DNA of 35,634 nt, from assembly GCA_015056545.1 (NCBI GenBank), contig SVGE01000010.1, positions 1 through 35,634 on the forward strand, in the 5' to 3' direction. A program made the translations under genes and the position numbers. The notes under the pieces were generated by a model that was not told the DNA's origin, ran no database searches, and saw only the letters and a program-made list of their open reading frames with translations. This DNA is from Clostridiales bacterium (GTDB lineage: Bacteria; Bacillota; Clostridia; TANB77; SIG350). The stretch's first letter is position 1, and every line of letters starts with the position of its first letter. Of the stretch, positions 14,633-35,041 are shown piece after piece.

Positions 14633-15760
14633 TTATAAATTAATTACTGAAACAACTGTTGTATCAATACCCCAACTTGTTGCATCATCTTCAGTAAAAC
14701 CGCTTCCTTCTCCTAATGTTATTGTTTTTAAGTTAGGACAATTGGCGAAAATATCATTACCTATACTAGTAACTGTCCCTGGTATTGTTATACTTTCTAA
14801 TGATGAACAAAAACTAAAGGCACTATCACAAATACTAGTAGTACTACTTGGTATTATTATATTTTTCACATCACTATATGAAAACATATGTTCACTTATA
14901 TAAGTTATCCCTTCTTCTAATATTACCGTATCTATTGAACTACAACAATCAAACAATTTATTGCCTAAATATGTAACCGTTCCTGGTATTGTTATATTGG
15001 TAATTTTTGTACCATAAAAGGCTTCTCCCCCTAAATATTCTAAATTTTTAGATAATGTTATATTAGAAAGGTCAGGTGATTCTCTAAATGCTGCACCACC
15101 TATTTTTTTAATGCTATCTGGCATTTTTACACTTGTAATATTTACACACCAAAAAGCTTGAGAAGCTATTTCAGTTACTTTAACAATATTTCCTTCATCA
15201 TCTATATACTCTTCAGGTATTATTAATTCTGTTTTTAAAGGAGTATAAGGAATAAAATTATAATACTTGTCTTCATCAGTTCTGTTATCATCCTTATATC
15301 CATATACAACTCCCTCTCTTATATCTAACAAACTAGCATATGAATTATCCCATATTGGCTCTACTGCTAATATTCCTAATTCTTCTAACCATGTGCTATA
15401 TGGTGTTTTGCTTTCTGCTCCTAATACTATCTCTCCATTATTTATTGCTATTATTCCTGCATATTCCTCTTTAAATTCTGGTATTATTGATTGTATTTCT
15501 TCTAATTTATTCGCATTTAATTCTTCTCCTTCTCCATTTCCGGTTGCTAAATTAATCATATTTTCCGCATTTTTTACTGCTAGTATTTCTTGATATGTTC
15601 TTATATCACTTTTAAATACTGCCTCCTTTGCCTTTTCTATTATTCCGCCTTCCATAAAAGTAACTATAACTGTAGCAGTTAATATTATTAGCACAATTAT
15701 TGTTACTATTAGTGCAACTAGTGATATACCTGATACTTTATTATTTCTTAAGTTTCTCAT
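14633..15760 (-). CDS. Prepilin-like protein with BspA-type leucine-rich repeats
   Basis: A 375-residue surface protein. Residues 6-30 read NNKVSGISLVALIVTIIVLI, a class III (type IV pilin-like) signal: Gly before a hydrophobic helix, but Ala instead of the usual Glu at +5. A pilin-like helical and beta segment follows (to about 200). The rest is BspA-type leucine-rich repeats (ITIPGTVTYLGNKLFDCCSSI, IPSSTTSICDSAFSFCSSL, IPGTVTSIGNDIFANCPNL). It should be displayed on the cell surface, perhaps as an adhesin. The ATG at 15760 is chosen for its AAAGGAGG; an upstream GTG (15808) lies in a hairpin without ribosome site. The long structured leader (copy B) precedes it. Confidence 0.85.
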   Translation of the reverse strand: MRNLRNNKVSGISLVALIVTIIVLIILTATVIVTFMEGGIIEKAKEAVFKSDIRTYQEILAVKNAENMINLATGNGEGEELNANKLEEIQSIIPEFKEEYAGIIAINNGEIVLGAESKTPYSTWLEELGILAVEPIWDNSYASLLDIREGVVYGYKDDNRTDEDKYYNFIPYTPLKTELIIPEEYIDDEGNIVKVTEIASQAFWCVNITSVKMPDSIKKIGGAAFRESPDLSNITLSKNLEYLGGEAFYGTKITNITIPGTVTYLGNKLFDCCSSIDTVILEEGITYISEHMFSYSDVKNIIIPSSTTSICDSAFSFCSSLESITIPGTVTSIGNDIFANCPNLKTITLGEGSGFTEDDATSWGIDTTVVSVINL

Positions 15761-16087
15761 AATCTTTTCCTCCTTTAAATTTTGTTGTACAATATAATCG
15801 TACAACACTTTTGGTTTTAGTTTAACTGTTTTGTTGTGTTTTTTTATTTTTATTCTCCTCCCTTCCTAGGTTCTTTATTTTATTATTACCAAAATTTTTT
15901 AATTTTGGCAAAAGAAAAGAACCTAAGACTATACTACGTTTTTTCGTAATATATTCTTAAGTTCTCTTGTATTTTTTTGCATGTCAATTAAAGATGTCCC
16001 TATTTTATAGAACACCCCCCCCCCTAGTATTTAGCACTTTTTGGCACTTTACTTTGGTTTTATTTGACATTTTTCCACCCTCTTTCT
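15761..16087 (-). ncRNA. Predicted ~327-nt structured leader RNA of the pilin-like gene (copy B)
   Basis: From a predicted start near 16087 the minus-strand leader holds, in order: two GTGC boxes; ten G (16015-16024); hairpin P1 (GGTGTTC 16010-16016 with GGACATC 15993-15999); hairpin P3 (15919-15964), with 9-bp outer arms GAACTTAAG/CTTAGGTTC and a 9-bp inner stem around AAAAAA, followed by TTTTCTTTT; and hairpin P4 (15865-15927), where CTTAGGTTCTTT pairs with AAAGAACCTAGG around an inner CCAAAATT/AATTTTGG stem. P3 and P4 share CTTAGGTTC, so they exclude each other, as in terminator/antiterminator pairs. A last hairpin (TGTTGTAC/GTACAACA, near 15783-15807) stands just before the ribosome site. 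No known riboswitch class is recognised. Confidence 0.6.
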
Positions 16088-16122
16088 TTTTATAATTTAG
16101 CATATGTAGTTTAACTTTTCAA
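15897..16122 (-). repeat. Leader/promoter repeat, copy B
   Basis: Near-identical to 1-222 over about 180 bp from the inner P4 stem to the GTGC boxes; the match then weakens but keeps the promoter boxes and their 17-bp spacing. Differences fall mostly in loops or preserve pairing (G·U and one U-A to C-G exchange in P1). Confidence 0.85.
16094..16122 (-). promoter_or_regulatory. Promoter of the pilin-like gene leader
   Basis: Minus strand: -35 TTGAAA (16117-16122), 17-bp spacer, extended -10 TGC-TAAATT (16094-16102). Copy A has the same layout (TTGAAT, 17 bp, TGA-TATATT), which supports this as a real promoter in both. Confidence 0.7.
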
Positions 16123-27136: not shown

Positions 27137-30100
27137 TTACATAACAACTCGTATATTATGAGTTTGTTTATCATTTACAAGATTTATATATTCTATATCT
27201 ATTTTTACATTATCTAAATAAATCTCTTTTACTCCCTTTTGTTTATTATTTTCGTTTTCTACTTTTATATTATATCGTGTATCCAGATATCTATACTCTA
27301 TTTCATATTCTTTCCAATTACTATTTATACACGGCTCTATTTTTAGTTTGTTTCCTTCTTTTTTAAATCCTAATATATATTCTAAACCTGCTTTATACAG
27401 CCAACTAGCAGCACCTGTATACCAAGTCCAGCCACCTCTTCCTTCAAGACCTTTTGCTGAATATATGTCTGCTGCTACAACATATGGCTCAACTTTATAT
27501 TTTCGCGTTGCATAATTGGTACGTGCATGTTCAATTGGGTTTAATATTCTAAAATATTCTTCTGCTAAATTTCCATTTCCTAATATACACTCTGCAATAA
27601 TATTCCATATGGCACCATGTGTATATTGACCACCATTTTCTCTGATACCTGCTAAATATCCCTTTATATACCCAGGTTCAGCTGTAGTTTTATCAAAAGG
27701 TGGAGTAAATAATTTTATTAACATATTTTCTCTATCTACTAATAAATTATCTACACTTTCCATTGATAATTTTTTCTTTTCATCATCTGGAAAATTTGAA
27801 ATAACAGACCAAGCTTGTGGCAGGCTGTCAATTTTGCATTCATAATTTTCATTACTTCCAATCGCTTCATCATTTAAAAAATATGCTCTTTTAAACCATT
27901 TTCCATCCCAACTGTTTTTTAGTCCGTTTTCTAATCTTTTTATAACTTGTTTATATTTATTTATTTTATCATTTTCTAAATTAGGTAATTTAATAAATTT
28001 ATTAAGAATATCATAAATGAAAAAACCTAGCCATACACTCTCACCTAAAACATTGTTTAAACCATCACTCCAATCACCACCATTAATTAGAGGTAAATCT
28101 TTTTCTGTTAATTGTATTCCTTTATCTATTGCTCTAATCATATGATTATATATGCTTTCCTTTACTTCACTTATATTAGGTGTTTCGTATCTTTCTTTTT
28201 CATTTTCTTGTAATACATTACTTTCAAGATATGGTGTTTCTTCTTCTAATATACTATAATCTCCTGTTATCTTTATATATTCTAAGGTTATATATACAAA
28301 CCATAATAAATCATCAGAATATCTACTACGTATTCCATTTCCCTTTTCTTCATGCCACCAATGTTGAACATCTCCTTCTAAAAATTGATGTGCAGAATGT
28401 TTAATTATCCTATCTCTTGCCATATCCGGACATACATACATTATACTTAACATATCTTGCAGTTGATCTCTGAAACCAAATGCTCCACTTGACTGATAAT
28501 ACCCGCTTCTTGCATATAATCTACTAGAAATAGTTTGATATATTAACCAATCATTTAATAATATATTCATTGATTCAACAGGAGTTTTTATTTTAATAAT
28601 ACTATTAATATTTTCCCATTTATTTATTACTGTTTCTTTTTCTTTTAATATATTTTCTATAGTTAACTCATTTTCCACATTTGTTTCTGTATCCTGTGGA
28701 TTATTTTCAAAATCTATACACAAAACAACCGTTCTATTTTTTTGATAATTAAGTTCAACACTTAGAGCCATCTCGATATACGGGTTTTTAGCATTATCTA
28801 TTCTATATCCCTTTTTATCCACATTTTTATCCACACCATCTGTGAACATCTGTAAGCATACGGTTTTTTCATATTCACAATTATACACATTTATACAATA
28901 CAATTTTTCATCTTTAACATAAATATTATATATTTTATTTTGCAGTTCATTTCCTAATAAAATATTCAAATTATATAATAAATCTATATTTCTTGTTTGT
29001 TCCCTAGTATTTAAAATATCTAAAATTATTATTTTTCTCTTTTTATTTAATGGAACAAAAACTGTTTGTTTTATATATATATCATTAATATTACTTTCAA
29101 AAACCGAATATCCCCTAGCATGTTTTATATAGTACTTAGCAGCATAAACATTAATAGGAGTAGCTGTTGTAGACCAAATTTTATTTCCTTCTTTTATTAA
29201 AATATATTCACTATTTTCATCTATTACTTGGTCATTCTTCCATCTATTTAGCTTATTTTGACTACTATTAATATAATAAGTGTATCCTCCACCATTTTCA
29301 TTAATAATTGTTCCAACATATTCATTAGCAATAACATTAGACCATGGCATTGGTGTCATATATCCTTCTTTTAAAATTATATTATAATCACCTTTTTCAT
29401 CAAATCCACCTATTTCATTATAATACTTTAAATTTTCTATATCTATATTTAATTGGTTTCCTTTATTAAGCTCTGGATTAATTTCTATACTAGTTTTCTC
29501 TTCTAATTTTAATAAATTTTTTGTATTCTCTTTATTTTTATATTTTTTTAACTGAGTTAAAATAGCTCCCTCTTTTGAATTAAATTTAATTACAGCTAAT
29601 ATATCTATTAATTTTAAAATATTATTTTTAATATTACTTTTATCTAAAATATATATACCATTATTTATATAATATCCTAACATTAAACTAATAATATATT
29701 CATTTATTTTATTTTCAATTTCAACAACATATTCATTTTTCGAGTTAATTATTATTACTAAATCAAATTGTATCCCTTTACTATATATATATTTAAAAGA
29801 ATTTAATAGTTCTTTTAATATTGGTAATTCAATTTTTCTATTAATTTCAATAGTAATAATTGGCTTATCTCCTGATAAACTAATCTCCCATAAATTTGAC
29901 TGTTTTAAATCAATATCTAAATTCATATCACTAATAACTTTAGGTGTATTATTTTCTATTATATATTTCATAAGTTGCTGATATATATTAATTTCTTTAG
30001 ATGAATAATTATAGAATTTAGCTTCTATCAATGCTTTACTAAAAGCTAATTCAATTGCATTTTTAATATTTATATATGAATTATATTTTTTAATATTATT

Positions 30101-33100
30101 TTTTGCCAAATCAATATTTTTTTCAACTGTACTTACATAAGCTATATTAATGCTCTCGTCTGGCTTTAGTCTTATATTTATCTTATATGCAATTATTGGA
30201 TTTATACTTGTTTGTAAACTATTTGAAAGAGGAATTCCTTTTTTAATCATATTGGAATTATATATATTTTTATTTCTTCCAATAAATTTATATTTATCTA
30301 TTTCAAAATCTATACTCTCTATATTTTTATCACAAATAATTTGTGTAGTTAAATATATACTATTATCATCAAAATGCTTTTTTCTTCTATGAACAATTAT
30401 TCCATCTTCATATTTTTCATATTCCAAAAACATATTATTATATGCCATATGTGCTAAATCATTATTAAGTTTTGTAATAATTGGTTCTTGATAAAAAAAC
30501 ATCTCATAGTCTACAGTTTCTTCTGAAATATTTTTTATTTTTACATTTCTAATATTACCATATTCTTGACCTAAGATACTAATGTTAGTTTCTATTTTTA
30601 AGTCATCTATTTGTTTTTCAAAAACACTATTATATGATGTAAAAGTTACATTTGTCTCTTTCATAATATTATCTATTTTATTGTTTAATCTGTTTTTTAA
30701 TAATATTAAAACTCCATTTTCTTTTTCATAATTTCTATATCTATTTATATATATATCATTTACTTTTTCAAAATTAGCGCCTTCACTATTAATACAAAAC
30801 ATATATTCTTTATTTGAAAGTATATTATATTCTATATTTCCTAAAGATTTATCTACTTTATTTTGATATAATTCAATAGGTTTTTCACTTTCTTTTTTCT
30901 CTTGATATATAACATTATTATTCTTATTTTTTAAAACAATATTATTACTTATTTTTTCTTGCAACAAAATATCTAAAGCTTCGATTTCTACATTATTTGA
31001 AAACCTTTTTTGAATAATATTATTATTTATTGCATTATTTATTGCTATTAATATTAGACCTTGGTGGTGTGCCATAAATGTTTTTACTACTTTATATTTA
31101 TCTTCACTTACCCTTTCTTTTGTATAATCTATACTATCATAAAATCCATATTCTCCATATGCACCTATATTAATTAAATCATACATATTTTTTATTACTA
31201 TATTAGGATATTTAGGAAGCATCATAATACTAGCATATGGAGATATTACTAAATCATCTTTTAACCCTCTTTTTAAGCCTAAACCTGGAACTCCAAAAGC
31301 TTTATACTGATAATTATATTCCATATCGTAAAGATAAAATGCACTTTCTGAAATTCCCCATGGCATATTACGTTTTTTAACATATTCTTTTTGATTTACT
31401 GCAACACATTTATATGTTTCATCAAGTAAACTATATTTATATGATTTCATTAAACCATATGGCATAAAATATTCAAAACTAGTACCTGTCCATGATATTA
31501 AACCCTTGTATCCATTTTTTTCTGTTAAGTTTCTAGAAAGCTTATACCAATGTTTATATGGAACATCACCTTTAGCTATTGCTACATAACTTAAGGTTCT
31601 AGCTTCAGAAGCTAAAAGATCATAATATGATTTAGATAATTCATTTGTATTAGCTCTATATTCAATAGAAAATAACTGTTTATTTTCATCATATAATATA
31701 CTAAAATCTAATTCATCTATCATATTTTGAATTCTATCTACTAAGTTTTCATCATTTAATTCTTCTTTGCAAAAATTTTTTAATACAAATAAATAAGCAA
31801 TATAGTTTCCATTATCTACACTAGATATTCCATCATTTAATTTTTCTAATGTTTTAATATTATACCAATTAAACAAATTTCCTTTATATTTTTCTAATTT
31901 GTCTATTGAATTCAAAATATTAATTATATAACCGTATACACTATCTTTATCTATAAATTTCATATCATATGCACAAATCACAGCCATAAAAGATAACCCT
32001 ATATTAGTAGAAGATGTTCTATAAACAATTTTTTCATTTCTTTGCTCTTGATAATTATCTGGTATTAAATAATTAGTATTTTCATTTAAGTATTGTTTGA
32101 AAAATCCCCAAGTATCTAAACTTACTTTACTTAAAAATTCTATCTCTTTTTTACTAAGTAAATCTATATGTTTTTTTTCTCTGCTAATATACCATGCTAC
32201 AATTGGTGAAAATGTCCATATAATACCTAAAACATACGCAAACAAACTGTTTTCATATGTTCCAAATCTAAATGCTAATAATATATTAATAACGCCTACT
32301 AAACTTGATATATACATTTCATTAATATATGTTTTTATATTTTTACCCAATAATTTTTCCGCTTGTTCTGCAGTTAACCATTCTAATAAATATTTCTTAG
32401 ATATTTTCATTCTATAAATTGTTTTTATAAAAGTTTCTAAATTAGTTATAGCTTTATATGGTAAAAAAAATATATCTAATATTGTTCTATATACAGCTGC
32501 TTCAAAATCTTTTAGCATTGGTATATATTGTTTCTCAAATTTTATATTTTTAATATTTAATATTTTTTCCATAATAGCTGGTAAAAGGTATACGAGTAAA
32601 ATAGTTAAAATAACCCAATACCATTTAATTTTTAATATGCTTAATCCTAATAATATATATAGAAAAATTGAAATATCTAGAAATCCTCTTCTTAAATTGT
32701 CAAATATTTTCCATCTTGATAATATATTAAGAGGATTGTTCTTTTCCTTTTTAAATGAATTTTTGTTTATTTCCCTTATCTTTTCACCTATCCAACTTGC
32801 TATTTGAATATCTCCTCTAAACCATCTGTTTTGTCTAACAATATAATTTATATATCCACTAGGAAATCCATCTATAAATTCTACATTTGTAACTAAGCCA
32901 CAACGTAAAAAACTACCTTCTAACAAATCATGACTTAATACTGTGTTTTCTGGTATTTGATTATCTAAAATATCACTAAATACTTGCAGGTCAAATATTC
33001 CTTTTCCAGTAAAAATACCTTCATCCCACATATCTTGATAAATATCTGATATTGCATTTGTATATGTGTCTATTCCTCCATATCCAGCATATATTTTAGA

Positions 33101-35041
33101 AAAAATATTTCTATCTGCACATTCAATATTTGTAGAAATTCGTGGTTGCAAAAGTGCATGTCCTTTAATTACTGCACTTTTATTTTTATTTAAAATGGGT
33201 TTGTTTAATGGATGTGCCATTATTCCAATTAATTTACTAATACTATTAATACCTATTTGTGTATCAGCATCAATTGTTAAAACATATTTTACTTTACCAA
33301 TTTGCTTTGTATCAATATTTATATTGTTAAAATCTGCTATTTCGTTATATAGTAAGTATCTATTAAATTGAGTAATTAATCCTCTTTTCCTTTCCCAACC
33401 CAAAAACTTTCCTTGTTTTTGATTATATACCCTATCTCTATATGCAAAATAAAATTTAGGTATTTCAAATTTATATTTCTTATTTAATCTTTCTATTTCT
33501 TCATTTCCTACTTTAATTATTTCATCATCTAAATCTACATGTTTACTATCTATCTCACTAGCATCTCCTAATAATGTAAAATAAATATTATCCTGCTTAT
33601 TTAATAGATAATACATTTCTAAACTGCGAATAAGTTCTTTTACTCTTTTAGTTGAATTTAAAAGAGTAGGTATTATAACAAAAGTAGTATTCTCTTTAGG
33701 TACTTCTTTTTCATAATTTAATGAAGGTAATATATTAGGTGTTGTAAATTTAAGTATTAATTTATCTATAAAACATACTACCAATTGCGATATTGGAATA
33801 AACATTATTGTACTACTTAATAAAATATATAAAATTTGTTTTAATGAATTTTCTTTAAACTTAATACTAATGCAAAAAGCAAATGATATTGTTACAAAAA
33901 AAGTAATTCCTAAAATACATGCCAAATATATCCCTAAATTTATATTTCTTTTTTTCTCTTTTTCCCTGCTATACTCATTTTCTTTTATTGATTTAATTAA
34001 TTCATTTATTCCTTCTTCATTTAACAAATAATATCCACTATGAGCTTGTGTTCCTTCGTTTTTTGCACATAATTCAATAATTTTACTACAAATATATTTT
34101 TGTGACACTCCTATTTTTTTAGATAATTTATATACTCTTTTTCTATACATATCTAAAGTTTCTGAATCCATCTTAGAATATATCTGTGCCTTTTCTTGTG
34201 ATAATATAATATCTATTTCACTGATATTTTCTAATTCTTTTGAAAAATTAATATTATTAATATCTTTTAAAGATATTATTGAATTTCCCATAAAAGCCTG
34301 TTTTGTAACAATATCAAAATGAACTCTTGATACAATTTCATCAACAGTTGTCCCAAGTTTTAAAACTTGCTTATCAAATATATCTATATATTCTGTATCA
34401 TCATTATTTATATTTTTTAATTTATATGCCATATATTCAATAAATGGCATATTTATTTCTGAATTTTCATTGCTCTTTATTTTTATATTAAACTTTTGCT
34501 CATTTTTATTTTTTCCTTCTACTAATCTTTCAATAATACTTTCTACTTTATATCTCTGATTTTGAACATATACTATATCTTCACATATATTTTTAATATA
34601 TTTTATTAATTCGATTTTTAAACATAATGGAAATACCCATAATTCTTGCAGTGATATATATTTTACTTGACTATATCCTGTTAGAAAAGCCTTCATATTA
34701 CTTGCCTCTAATTTTCCATCTGCATATCTTATTAACTCATTAGCTAATACTAATATTCGTAACTTATTATCTACTTTAGGTAAATCATATTTGCTATTTT
34801 TATTTAATTCACTTTCCAAAAAAATAGCTTCTTTTTCAATTATATACAAATTATCTAATATCCACTCACCTGCTGGATGAATGGATATTCCTAATTCATT
34901 ATGCATATATAACTCATGATATGTTTCTTTTATATATTTTAAATTTTTTCTTAATTCATCTGCAATTTCTGAAACATTTCCCTTTTTACTAATATTATGT
35001 TTAATTCCTATTTTTTTACCATATTCAAATATATTTTCCAT
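27137..35041 (-). CDS. Cyclic beta-1,2-glucan synthase-like protein (GT84, glycoamylase-like, GH94)
   Basis: A 2634-residue membrane protein in the layout of cyclic beta-1,2-glucan synthases (NdvB/ChvB). Two helices lie near 370-430. A GT84-type glycosyltransferase spans about 450-760, with LTIDADTQIG (about 587), SHDLLEGSFLRCG and QNRWFRGD (about 739). More helices follow (about 780-990). A glycoamylase-like domain (about 1005-1380) includes YASIMMLP and MAHHQG. A GH94 phosphorylase part ends the protein, with GFRDQLQDML (about 2192), NGGDWSDG (about 2322) and GGQYTHGAIW (about 2471). Such enzymes start on themselves, extend, trim and cyclise beta-1,2-glucan. AGGAG precedes the ATG. It is monocistronic. 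A linear product is also possible. Confidence 0.88.
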   Translation of the reverse strand: MENIFEYGKKIGIKHNISKKGNVSEIADELRKNLKYIKETYHELYMHNELGISIHPAGEWILDNLYIIEKEAIFLESELNKNSKYDLPKVDNKLRILVLANELIRYADGKLEASNMKAFLTGYSQVKYISLQELWVFPLCLKIELIKYIKNICEDIVYVQNQRYKVESIIERLVEGKNKNEQKFNIKIKSNENSEINMPFIEYMAYKLKNINNDDTEYIDIFDKQVLKLGTTVDEIVSRVHFDIVTKQAFMGNSIISLKDINNINFSKELENISEIDIILSQEKAQIYSKMDSETLDMYRKRVYKLSKKIGVSQKYICSKIIELCAKNEGTQAHSGYYLLNEEGINELIKSIKENEYSREKEKKRNINLGIYLACILGITFFVTISFAFCISIKFKENSLKQILYILLSSTIMFIPISQLVVCFIDKLILKFTTPNILPSLNYEKEVPKENTTFVIIPTLLNSTKRVKELIRSLEMYYLLNKQDNIYFTLLGDASEIDSKHVDLDDEIIKVGNEEIERLNKKYKFEIPKFYFAYRDRVYNQKQGKFLGWERKRGLITQFNRYLLYNEIADFNNINIDTKQIGKVKYVLTIDADTQIGINSISKLIGIMAHPLNKPILNKNKSAVIKGHALLQPRISTNIECADRNIFSKIYAGYGGIDTYTNAISDIYQDMWDEGIFTGKGIFDLQVFSDILDNQIPENTVLSHDLLEGSFLRCGLVTNVEFIDGFPSGYINYIVRQNRWFRGDIQIASWIGEKIREINKNSFKKEKNNPLNILSRWKIFDNLRRGFLDISIFLYILLGLSILKIKWYWVILTILLVYLLPAIMEKILNIKNIKFEKQYIPMLKDFEAAVYRTILDIFFLPYKAITNLETFIKTIYRMKISKKYLLEWLTAEQAEKLLGKNIKTYINEMYISSLVGVINILLAFRFGTYENSLFAYVLGIIWTFSPIVAWYISREKKHIDLLSKKEIEFLSKVSLDTWGFFKQYLNENTNYLIPDNYQEQRNEKIVYRTSSTNIGLSFMAVICAYDMKFIDKDSVYGYIINILNSIDKLEKYKGNLFNWYNIKTLEKLNDGISSVDNGNYIAYLFVLKNFCKEELNDENLVDRIQNMIDELDFSILYDENKQLFSIEYRANTNELSKSYYDLLASEARTLSYVAIAKGDVPYKHWYKLSRNLTEKNGYKGLISWTGTSFEYFMPYGLMKSYKYSLLDETYKCVAVNQKEYVKKRNMPWGISESAFYLYDMEYNYQYKAFGVPGLGLKRGLKDDLVISPYASIMMLPKYPNIVIKNMYDLINIGAYGEYGFYDSIDYTKERVSEDKYKVVKTFMAHHQGLILIAINNAINNNIIQKRFSNNVEIEALDILLQEKISNNIVLKNKNNNVIYQEKKESEKPIELYQNKVDKSLGNIEYNILSNKEYMFCINSEGANFEKVNDIYINRYRNYEKENGVLILLKNRLNNKIDNIMKETNVTFTSYNSVFEKQIDDLKIETNISILGQEYGNIRNVKIKNISEETVDYEMFFYQEPIITKLNNDLAHMAYNNMFLEYEKYEDGIIVHRRKKHFDDNSIYLTTQIICDKNIESIDFEIDKYKFIGRNKNIYNSNMIKKGIPLSNSLQTSINPIIAYKINIRLKPDESINIAYVSTVEKNIDLAKNNIKKYNSYINIKNAIELAFSKALIEAKFYNYSSKEINIYQQLMKYIIENNTPKVISDMNLDIDLKQSNLWEISLSGDKPIITIEINRKIELPILKELLNSFKYIYSKGIQFDLVIIINSKNEYVVEIENKINEYIISLMLGYYINNGIYILDKSNIKNNILKLIDILAVIKFNSKEGAILTQLKKYKNKENTKNLLKLEEKTSIEINPELNKGNQLNIDIENLKYYNEIGGFDEKGDYNIILKEGYMTPMPWSNVIANEYVGTIINENGGGYTYYINSSQNKLNRWKNDQVIDENSEYILIKEGNKIWSTTATPINVYAAKYYIKHARGYSVFESNINDIYIKQTVFVPLNKKRKIIILDILNTREQTRNIDLLYNLNILLGNELQNKIYNIYVKDEKLYCINVYNCEYEKTVCLQMFTDGVDKNVDKKGYRIDNAKNPYIEMALSVELNYQKNRTVVLCIDFENNPQDTETNVENELTIENILKEKETVINKWENINSIIKIKTPVESMNILLNDWLIYQTISSRLYARSGYYQSSGAFGFRDQLQDMLSIMYVCPDMARDRIIKHSAHQFLEGDVQHWWHEEKGNGIRSRYSDDLLWFVYITLEYIKITGDYSILEEETPYLESNVLQENEKERYETPNISEVKESIYNHMIRAIDKGIQLTEKDLPLINGGDWSDGLNNVLGESVWLGFFIYDILNKFIKLPNLENDKINKYKQVIKRLENGLKNSWDGKWFKRAYFLNDEAIGSNENYECKIDSLPQAWSVISNFPDDEKKKLSMESVDNLLVDRENMLIKLFTPPFDKTTAEPGYIKGYLAGIRENGGQYTHGAIWNIIAECILGNGNLAEEYFRILNPIEHARTNYATRKYKVEPYVVAADIYSAKGLEGRGGWTWYTGAASWLYKAGLEYILGFKKEGNKLKIEPCINSNWKEYEIEYRYLDTRYNIKVENENNKQKGVKEIYLDNVKIDIEYINLVNDKQTHNIRVVM

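Follow-up and report, generated by a model that had tools for sequence, protein, structure and literature searches.

In Streptococcus gallolyticus, changes in the number of GCAGA repeats in the leader of the pil1 locus lengthen a leader peptide, and the ribosome then opens a premature terminator (Danne et al., 2014; PMC3894217). The effect is lost in the presence of chloramphenicol, and mutants of the start codon and of the terminator gave the predicted outcome; the pil3 locus resembles pil1 in its layout and in how its repeats behave (PMC3894217). In the searchable open-access literature, no phase-variable leader-peptide attenuation was found beyond these two loci, both for pili and both from a single Streptococcus species. 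Attenuators of the trp type, which belong to amino-acid biosynthesis, also govern terminator formation by translation of a leader open reading frame (ORF), and in the phase variation of Neisseria, Haemophilus and Campylobacter by simple sequence repeats within genes, a reversible repeat length sets the reading frame.

The leaders described here, from an uncultured Clostridiales bacterium of the gut, are, on the present analysis, very probably phase-variable, translation-controlled transcription attenuators for prepilin-like surface genes. They have every pil1-type part that is testable from sequence. Like pil1 and pil3, they have a short ORF led by a Shine-Dalgarno (SD) sequence upstream of pilus or surface genes and a slippery repeat within this ORF, and the repeat number sets a stop either well ahead of a terminator hairpin or within or near it. 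The streptococcal leaders have GCAGA repeats at two loci, serve sortase-type pili in a cultured coccus and have been tested experimentally, whereas the present leaders have G runs (AC repeats in a relative), number about 30 loci per genome, precede type IV prepilin-like genes and are known here from sequence alone. They also have additional conserved structures, termed P1 and P4. No GCAGA repeat and no sequence homology to the pil1/pil3 leader was found in the leaders of this genome, and the assignment to the pil1/pil3 type refers to the mechanism and implies no common descent. In contrast to trp-type attenuators, there is no product-linked regulatory codon run and no antiterminator upstream of the terminator, and the switching would be by reading frame rather than by stalling of the ribosome. 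Unlike repeat variation within genes, it is the frame of an upstream leader that would govern transcription here, and the surface gene stays intact. The proposed mechanism is of an already known type; what is new is its extension to a genome-wide surface repertoire and to other repeats.

The window, i.e. the whole stretch of 35,634 nt that was analysed, is contig C11 of a genome (G000) of 1.45 Mb in 17 contigs. It has two leader copies, A (1-222), which the contig end cuts off ahead of its downstream gene, and B; all features of the two copies given below are on the minus strand. The window also has a 2634-aa open reading frame at 27137-35041. A preliminary description was based on the two copies, and the positions and sequences that it gave for copy A, P1, P3, the U-run and the P4 strand were all reproduced. 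The two copies are real, and as a view of the family they are incomplete: the leader is found at 36 places across G000 by BLAST, and a covariance model built from 30 leader copies gives 34 matches. This amounts to 31-34 loci, of which 31 have a leader start; three more, 3' pieces located at the ends of contigs, may belong to copies that were cut in two. Several contigs of G000 break off within a leader copy, as is expected because repeats break assembly. The assembly is of the metagenome type, there is one genome per species, and tract lengths are compared between paralogues only.

A TTGAAA-17-TATATT-like promoter is found 20-27 nt ahead of the leader start in nearly all 30 copies, which bears out the conserved promoter reported earlier. 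In copy B (16094-16122), it consists of a -35 sequence TTGAAA (16122-16117), 17 nt and a -10 sequence TAAATT (16099-16094); the copy A promoter (194-222) is TTGAAT-17-TATATT. The first reading did not include the SD-led short ORF, which in copy B starts at 16070 and contains a run of 10 Gs. An SD match of at least 4 nt together with an ATG or TTG start is present in 30/30 analysed G000 copies. The ORF opens with MSNK or a similar peptide, and the G run follows after 15-16 codons. Wherever a copy has a leader start, its tract is 7-13 Gs long, 10 being the commonest length; the length differs between paralogues, with flanking bases nearly invariant. Tracts of at least nine Gs are located in leaders in 25 of 27 cases in G000. 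The remaining two, at G000:C14 978 and 8556 (L086 and L087), belong to a different repeated sequence, with the C run on the opposite strand, close to a gene end.

Exactly one class of G number modulo three carries the ORF into the terminator-like hairpin P3 in 30/30 testable G000 copies. The stop of this "through" frame is within P3 in 29 of the 30 copies, and the product is 42-51 aa. In the other two classes a stop occurs 6-23 nt past the G run, mostly in the P1 loop and at least 25 nt short of P3; these frames end at codon 21-26, within or just beyond P1. The open class is a G number divisible by three (9, 12) in 28/30 copies, and in L002 and L022 the P1 region is one base shorter and the open class is shifted. 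P1 and the 5' arm of P3 are contained in the leader ORF in one of the three frames. The through frame of copy B (15929-16070) extends from ATG at 16070-16068, with SD GAGGGTGG, to TAG at 15931-15929 within P3; with the present 10 Gs (16015-16024, the proposed slippery switch) there is an early stop, TAA at 16007-16005. In copy A the through frame (38-173) extends from TTG at 173-171 to TAG at 40-38, also within P3, and with its 10 Gs (118-127) the early stop is TAG at 110-108. The frame thus predicts an "off" state for both window copies. Four of the 30 copies are at present in the through frame (L002, L003, L024 and L030).

The frame pattern is not rare by chance at a single unrelated locus, where 22-54% of shuffles show it. 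When the changes of each copy are re-placed at random, the property is kept with a probability of 0.25-1.0 per copy; the product over 29 distinct sequences, 2.6e-9, assumes independence and, as the copies are related, is indicative only. The frame rule carries weight as evidence because it is kept across many copies and recurs with different repeats.

P3 in copy B (15919-15964) has a predicted energy of -25.3 kcal/mol and a z of -7.4, 0/200 shuffles fold equally well, and the U-run TTTTCTTTT (15910-15918) is directly 3' of it. In copy A, P3 (23-68) is followed by TTTTAGTTT. A simple terminator pattern scan missed P3, and the terminator label therefore rests on the fold and the U-run. The P1 hairpin is GGTGTTC/GGACATC in copy B (15993-16016), with the early stop codon in the loop, and GATGTTT/AAACATC in copy A (96-118); the fold has a z of -3.9. 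As previously claimed, all seven pairs form in both window copies, with a U-A to C-G compensatory change, and the seven pairs are preserved in 29/30 copies, one pair being U-A or C-G with both sides changed. Covariation had been anticipated in P1, P3 and P4. It is seen as compensatory changes in P1 and P4, but P3 varies among copies only by one-sided U-A/U-G changes.

P4 is an alternative fold in which the strand AAAGAACCTAGG (15865-15876 in copy B) pairs with the 3' arm of P3. The P4 region has a z of -6.3, and the pairing is found in all copies with sufficient downstream sequence except L022, where an insertion is present; compared with shuffles, the pairing is highly significant in some copies and modestly so in others. 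The second strand is 8-13 nt (short class) or 42-46 nt (long class) past the 3' arm of P3. These two spacings match two classes of leader 3' half, and one pair is G-C, G-U or A-U. The P4 pairing first described is therefore real. The antiterminator role is rejected: wherever P4 is found, its second strand is transcribed after the U-run, and P4 is thus unable to decide termination. Perhaps P4 holds the readthrough RNA in the alternative fold. A frame switch does not account for P1, for P4 or for the extreme conservation of AAAGTGCTAAATACTAGGGG at the nucleotide level. Copy B also has an inverted repeat, GTTGTAC..GTACAAC (15784-15806, read by eye), upstream of the pilin SD. In long-class copies the inverted repeat is TTATACAATAAAATTGTATAA, of which L007 has a compensated variant, TTACACAAT..ATTGTGTAA (by eye). 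The inverted repeat of the window and of the long-class copies is 10-30 nt ahead of the pilin SD and may be a hairpin or an operator.

A search of G000 for the prepilin N-terminus gives 29 close-family genes, and 29/29 are directly downstream of a leader copy, which upholds the original proposal of a multicopy, attenuation-type leader family ahead of prepilin-like genes. Two distant prepilin-like genes in G000 have no leader. The downstream proteins have a common prepilin-like start, GISLVALIVTIIVLIILTAAVIVTF, and are divergent beyond it, some with BspA-type leucine-rich repeats. The predicted regulated gene of copy B (14633-15760) encodes 375 aa with the prepilin-like N-terminus and BspA-type leucine-rich repeats, and has the SD AAAGGAGG at 15776-15769. 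At G000:C13 22441-24428 there are two type IV pilus-type ATPase genes, on the same strand as leader copy L032 and about 2 kb upstream of it. Prepilin peptidase PF01478 (Peptidase_A24) was not found in the G000 genome.

These properties suggest the following mechanism. A constitutive-looking promoter would produce a leader RNA whose short ORF includes the G run, and slipped-strand mispairing would alter the number of Gs. When the number is divisible by three (ON), the ribosome would translate about 44-48 codons, into P3, and, by analogy with pil1, would keep P3 open, such that RNA polymerase proceeds into the surface gene. With other numbers (OFF), the ribosome would halt at codon 21-26, P3 would form and transcription would terminate. 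About 30 independent switches of this kind could lead a population to display many combinations of surface proteins. We infer slippage, termination and readthrough in these leaders. The parts are individually ordinary, and it is the combination that is striking, i.e. a genome-wide set of slippery-repeat attenuation switches.

Copies in relatives had been expected, but this leader sequence is missing from the 57 genomes of the order that were searched, where DNA searches and the covariance model gave nothing convincing; the design does recur there, with unrelated sequence. Exact core patterns of the leader have no match in viral_contigs or genome_contigs. Runs of at least nine Gs are missing from most relatives. 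Those of G003 (9/9) and G007 (2/2) are all in leaders with an SD, an ORF, a G run and a terminator. G003 corresponds, by a database scan, to Clostridia bacterium RGIG9151, a MAG from the ruminant gut. One of three frames reaches the terminator in each of these leaders, their sequence is unrelated to that of the G000 leader, and a secreted or pilin gene is next in most cases where the neighbour is visible. An exception is L089 of G003, where the poly-G leader is ahead of an internally repetitive protein of 511+ aa with no evident signal peptide. A G-run pattern gave 0 matches over 385 genomes of the order, the pattern being too narrow, and a class-wide G-run-plus-U-run pattern gave mostly unrelated tracts, with only the family f21 loci L114, L124 and L126 being similar. 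These three are SD-ORF-G-run-terminator leaders situated 280-520 nt ahead of secreted proteins whose von Willebrand A matches are weak; in L114, two frames are through.

G001, from a sister genus of the same family, has (AC)8-14 in leader ORFs ahead of prepilin-like genes, with peptides of the form ...HTHTHT... There are about 25 or more such leader ORFs in G001 (e.g. L216-L242), with two terminator-half subtypes, as in the window genome, and related (AC)n leaders are present in G006, from another family. A terminator is detectable at 20 (AC)n loci, 18 in G001 and two in G006, and these form the testable set. Exactly one frame is through in 18/20 (17 in G001, one in G006), always at a repeat number divisible by 3; one of these loci, L227, with nine AC repeats, is now in the through state, and L224 of G001 has no frame through. 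In one G001 subtype the distances from the repeat to the through-frame stop (94, 88, 82 and 64) differ by multiples of three with the phase unchanged, which points to selection on frame. The codon-position bias of the G001 through frame is 50, 22 and 43 for first, second and third positions, with no clear third-position excess. Thus in G001 leaders it seems to be the frame that is conserved and not the peptide.

The recurrence with (AC)n bears on whether the repeats change at the DNA level. RNA polymerase or the ribosome might instead slip on 9-10 Gs with the DNA unchanged, giving mixed leaders and steady partial readthrough in each cell. In its favour, most copies are one base off the through frame (10 or 8 Gs versus 9), and long G runs are generally slippery. 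It is nonetheless unlikely, since tract lengths differ between paralogues despite the nearly invariant flanks and since the same design is built on dinucleotide repeats; (AC)n is a typical DNA-slippage tract and a poor transcriptional slippage site. The GGG codons also raise the question of classical leader-peptide attenuation, in which glycine supply would be sensed, given that the G run translates to Gly codons in the leader ORF. Most tract lengths are not multiples of three, the downstream genes encode surface proteins and G001 has His-Thr repeats in place of Gly, all of which make glycine sensing extremely improbable.

A further rival is a riboswitch-like sensing attenuator, in which a ligand or protein would act on P1, P3 and P4, with the short ORF incidental. 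Preservation of P1 and P4 with compensatory changes and the strong nucleotide conservation ahead of the G run are in its favour. The window has 0 Rfam matches at the gathering threshold, however, and the parts indicate a leader ORF that is translated and contains a slippery repeat; G003, G007 and G001 preserve the ORF-repeat-terminator layout with unrelated leader sequences, and the second strand of P4 comes after the U-run. A sensing role is therefore very improbable. At about 30 dispersed loci the leaders and the prepilin N-termini are almost the same in sequence and the C-terminal parts are different, and this would suit leaders that are mainly anchors for homologous recombination, reshuffling surface-gene cassettes, with the G run as a recombination or DNA-structure element. 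As such anchoring predicts neither the frame rule nor the terminator, and as every copy has its own promoter and start, there is very little chance that it is the main function, but it could be a role additional to the switch.

With phase-variable attenuation as the preferred reading, it is somewhat probable that arrays of about 30 independent repeat-length switches, acting by leader-ORF attenuation, run much of the surface proteome in several uncultured gut Clostridia families. The repeats would be lineage specific, (G)n or (AC)n, the design would have arisen or been rebuilt more than once, and the arrays would represent a general means of diversifying a pilin repertoire. If true, this would make it a general way of varying the surface among gut bacteria that are known only through sequencing. 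The on/off state of each gene would be readable from the genome, as tract length modulo three, and surface genes may be silent in most cells despite being intact.
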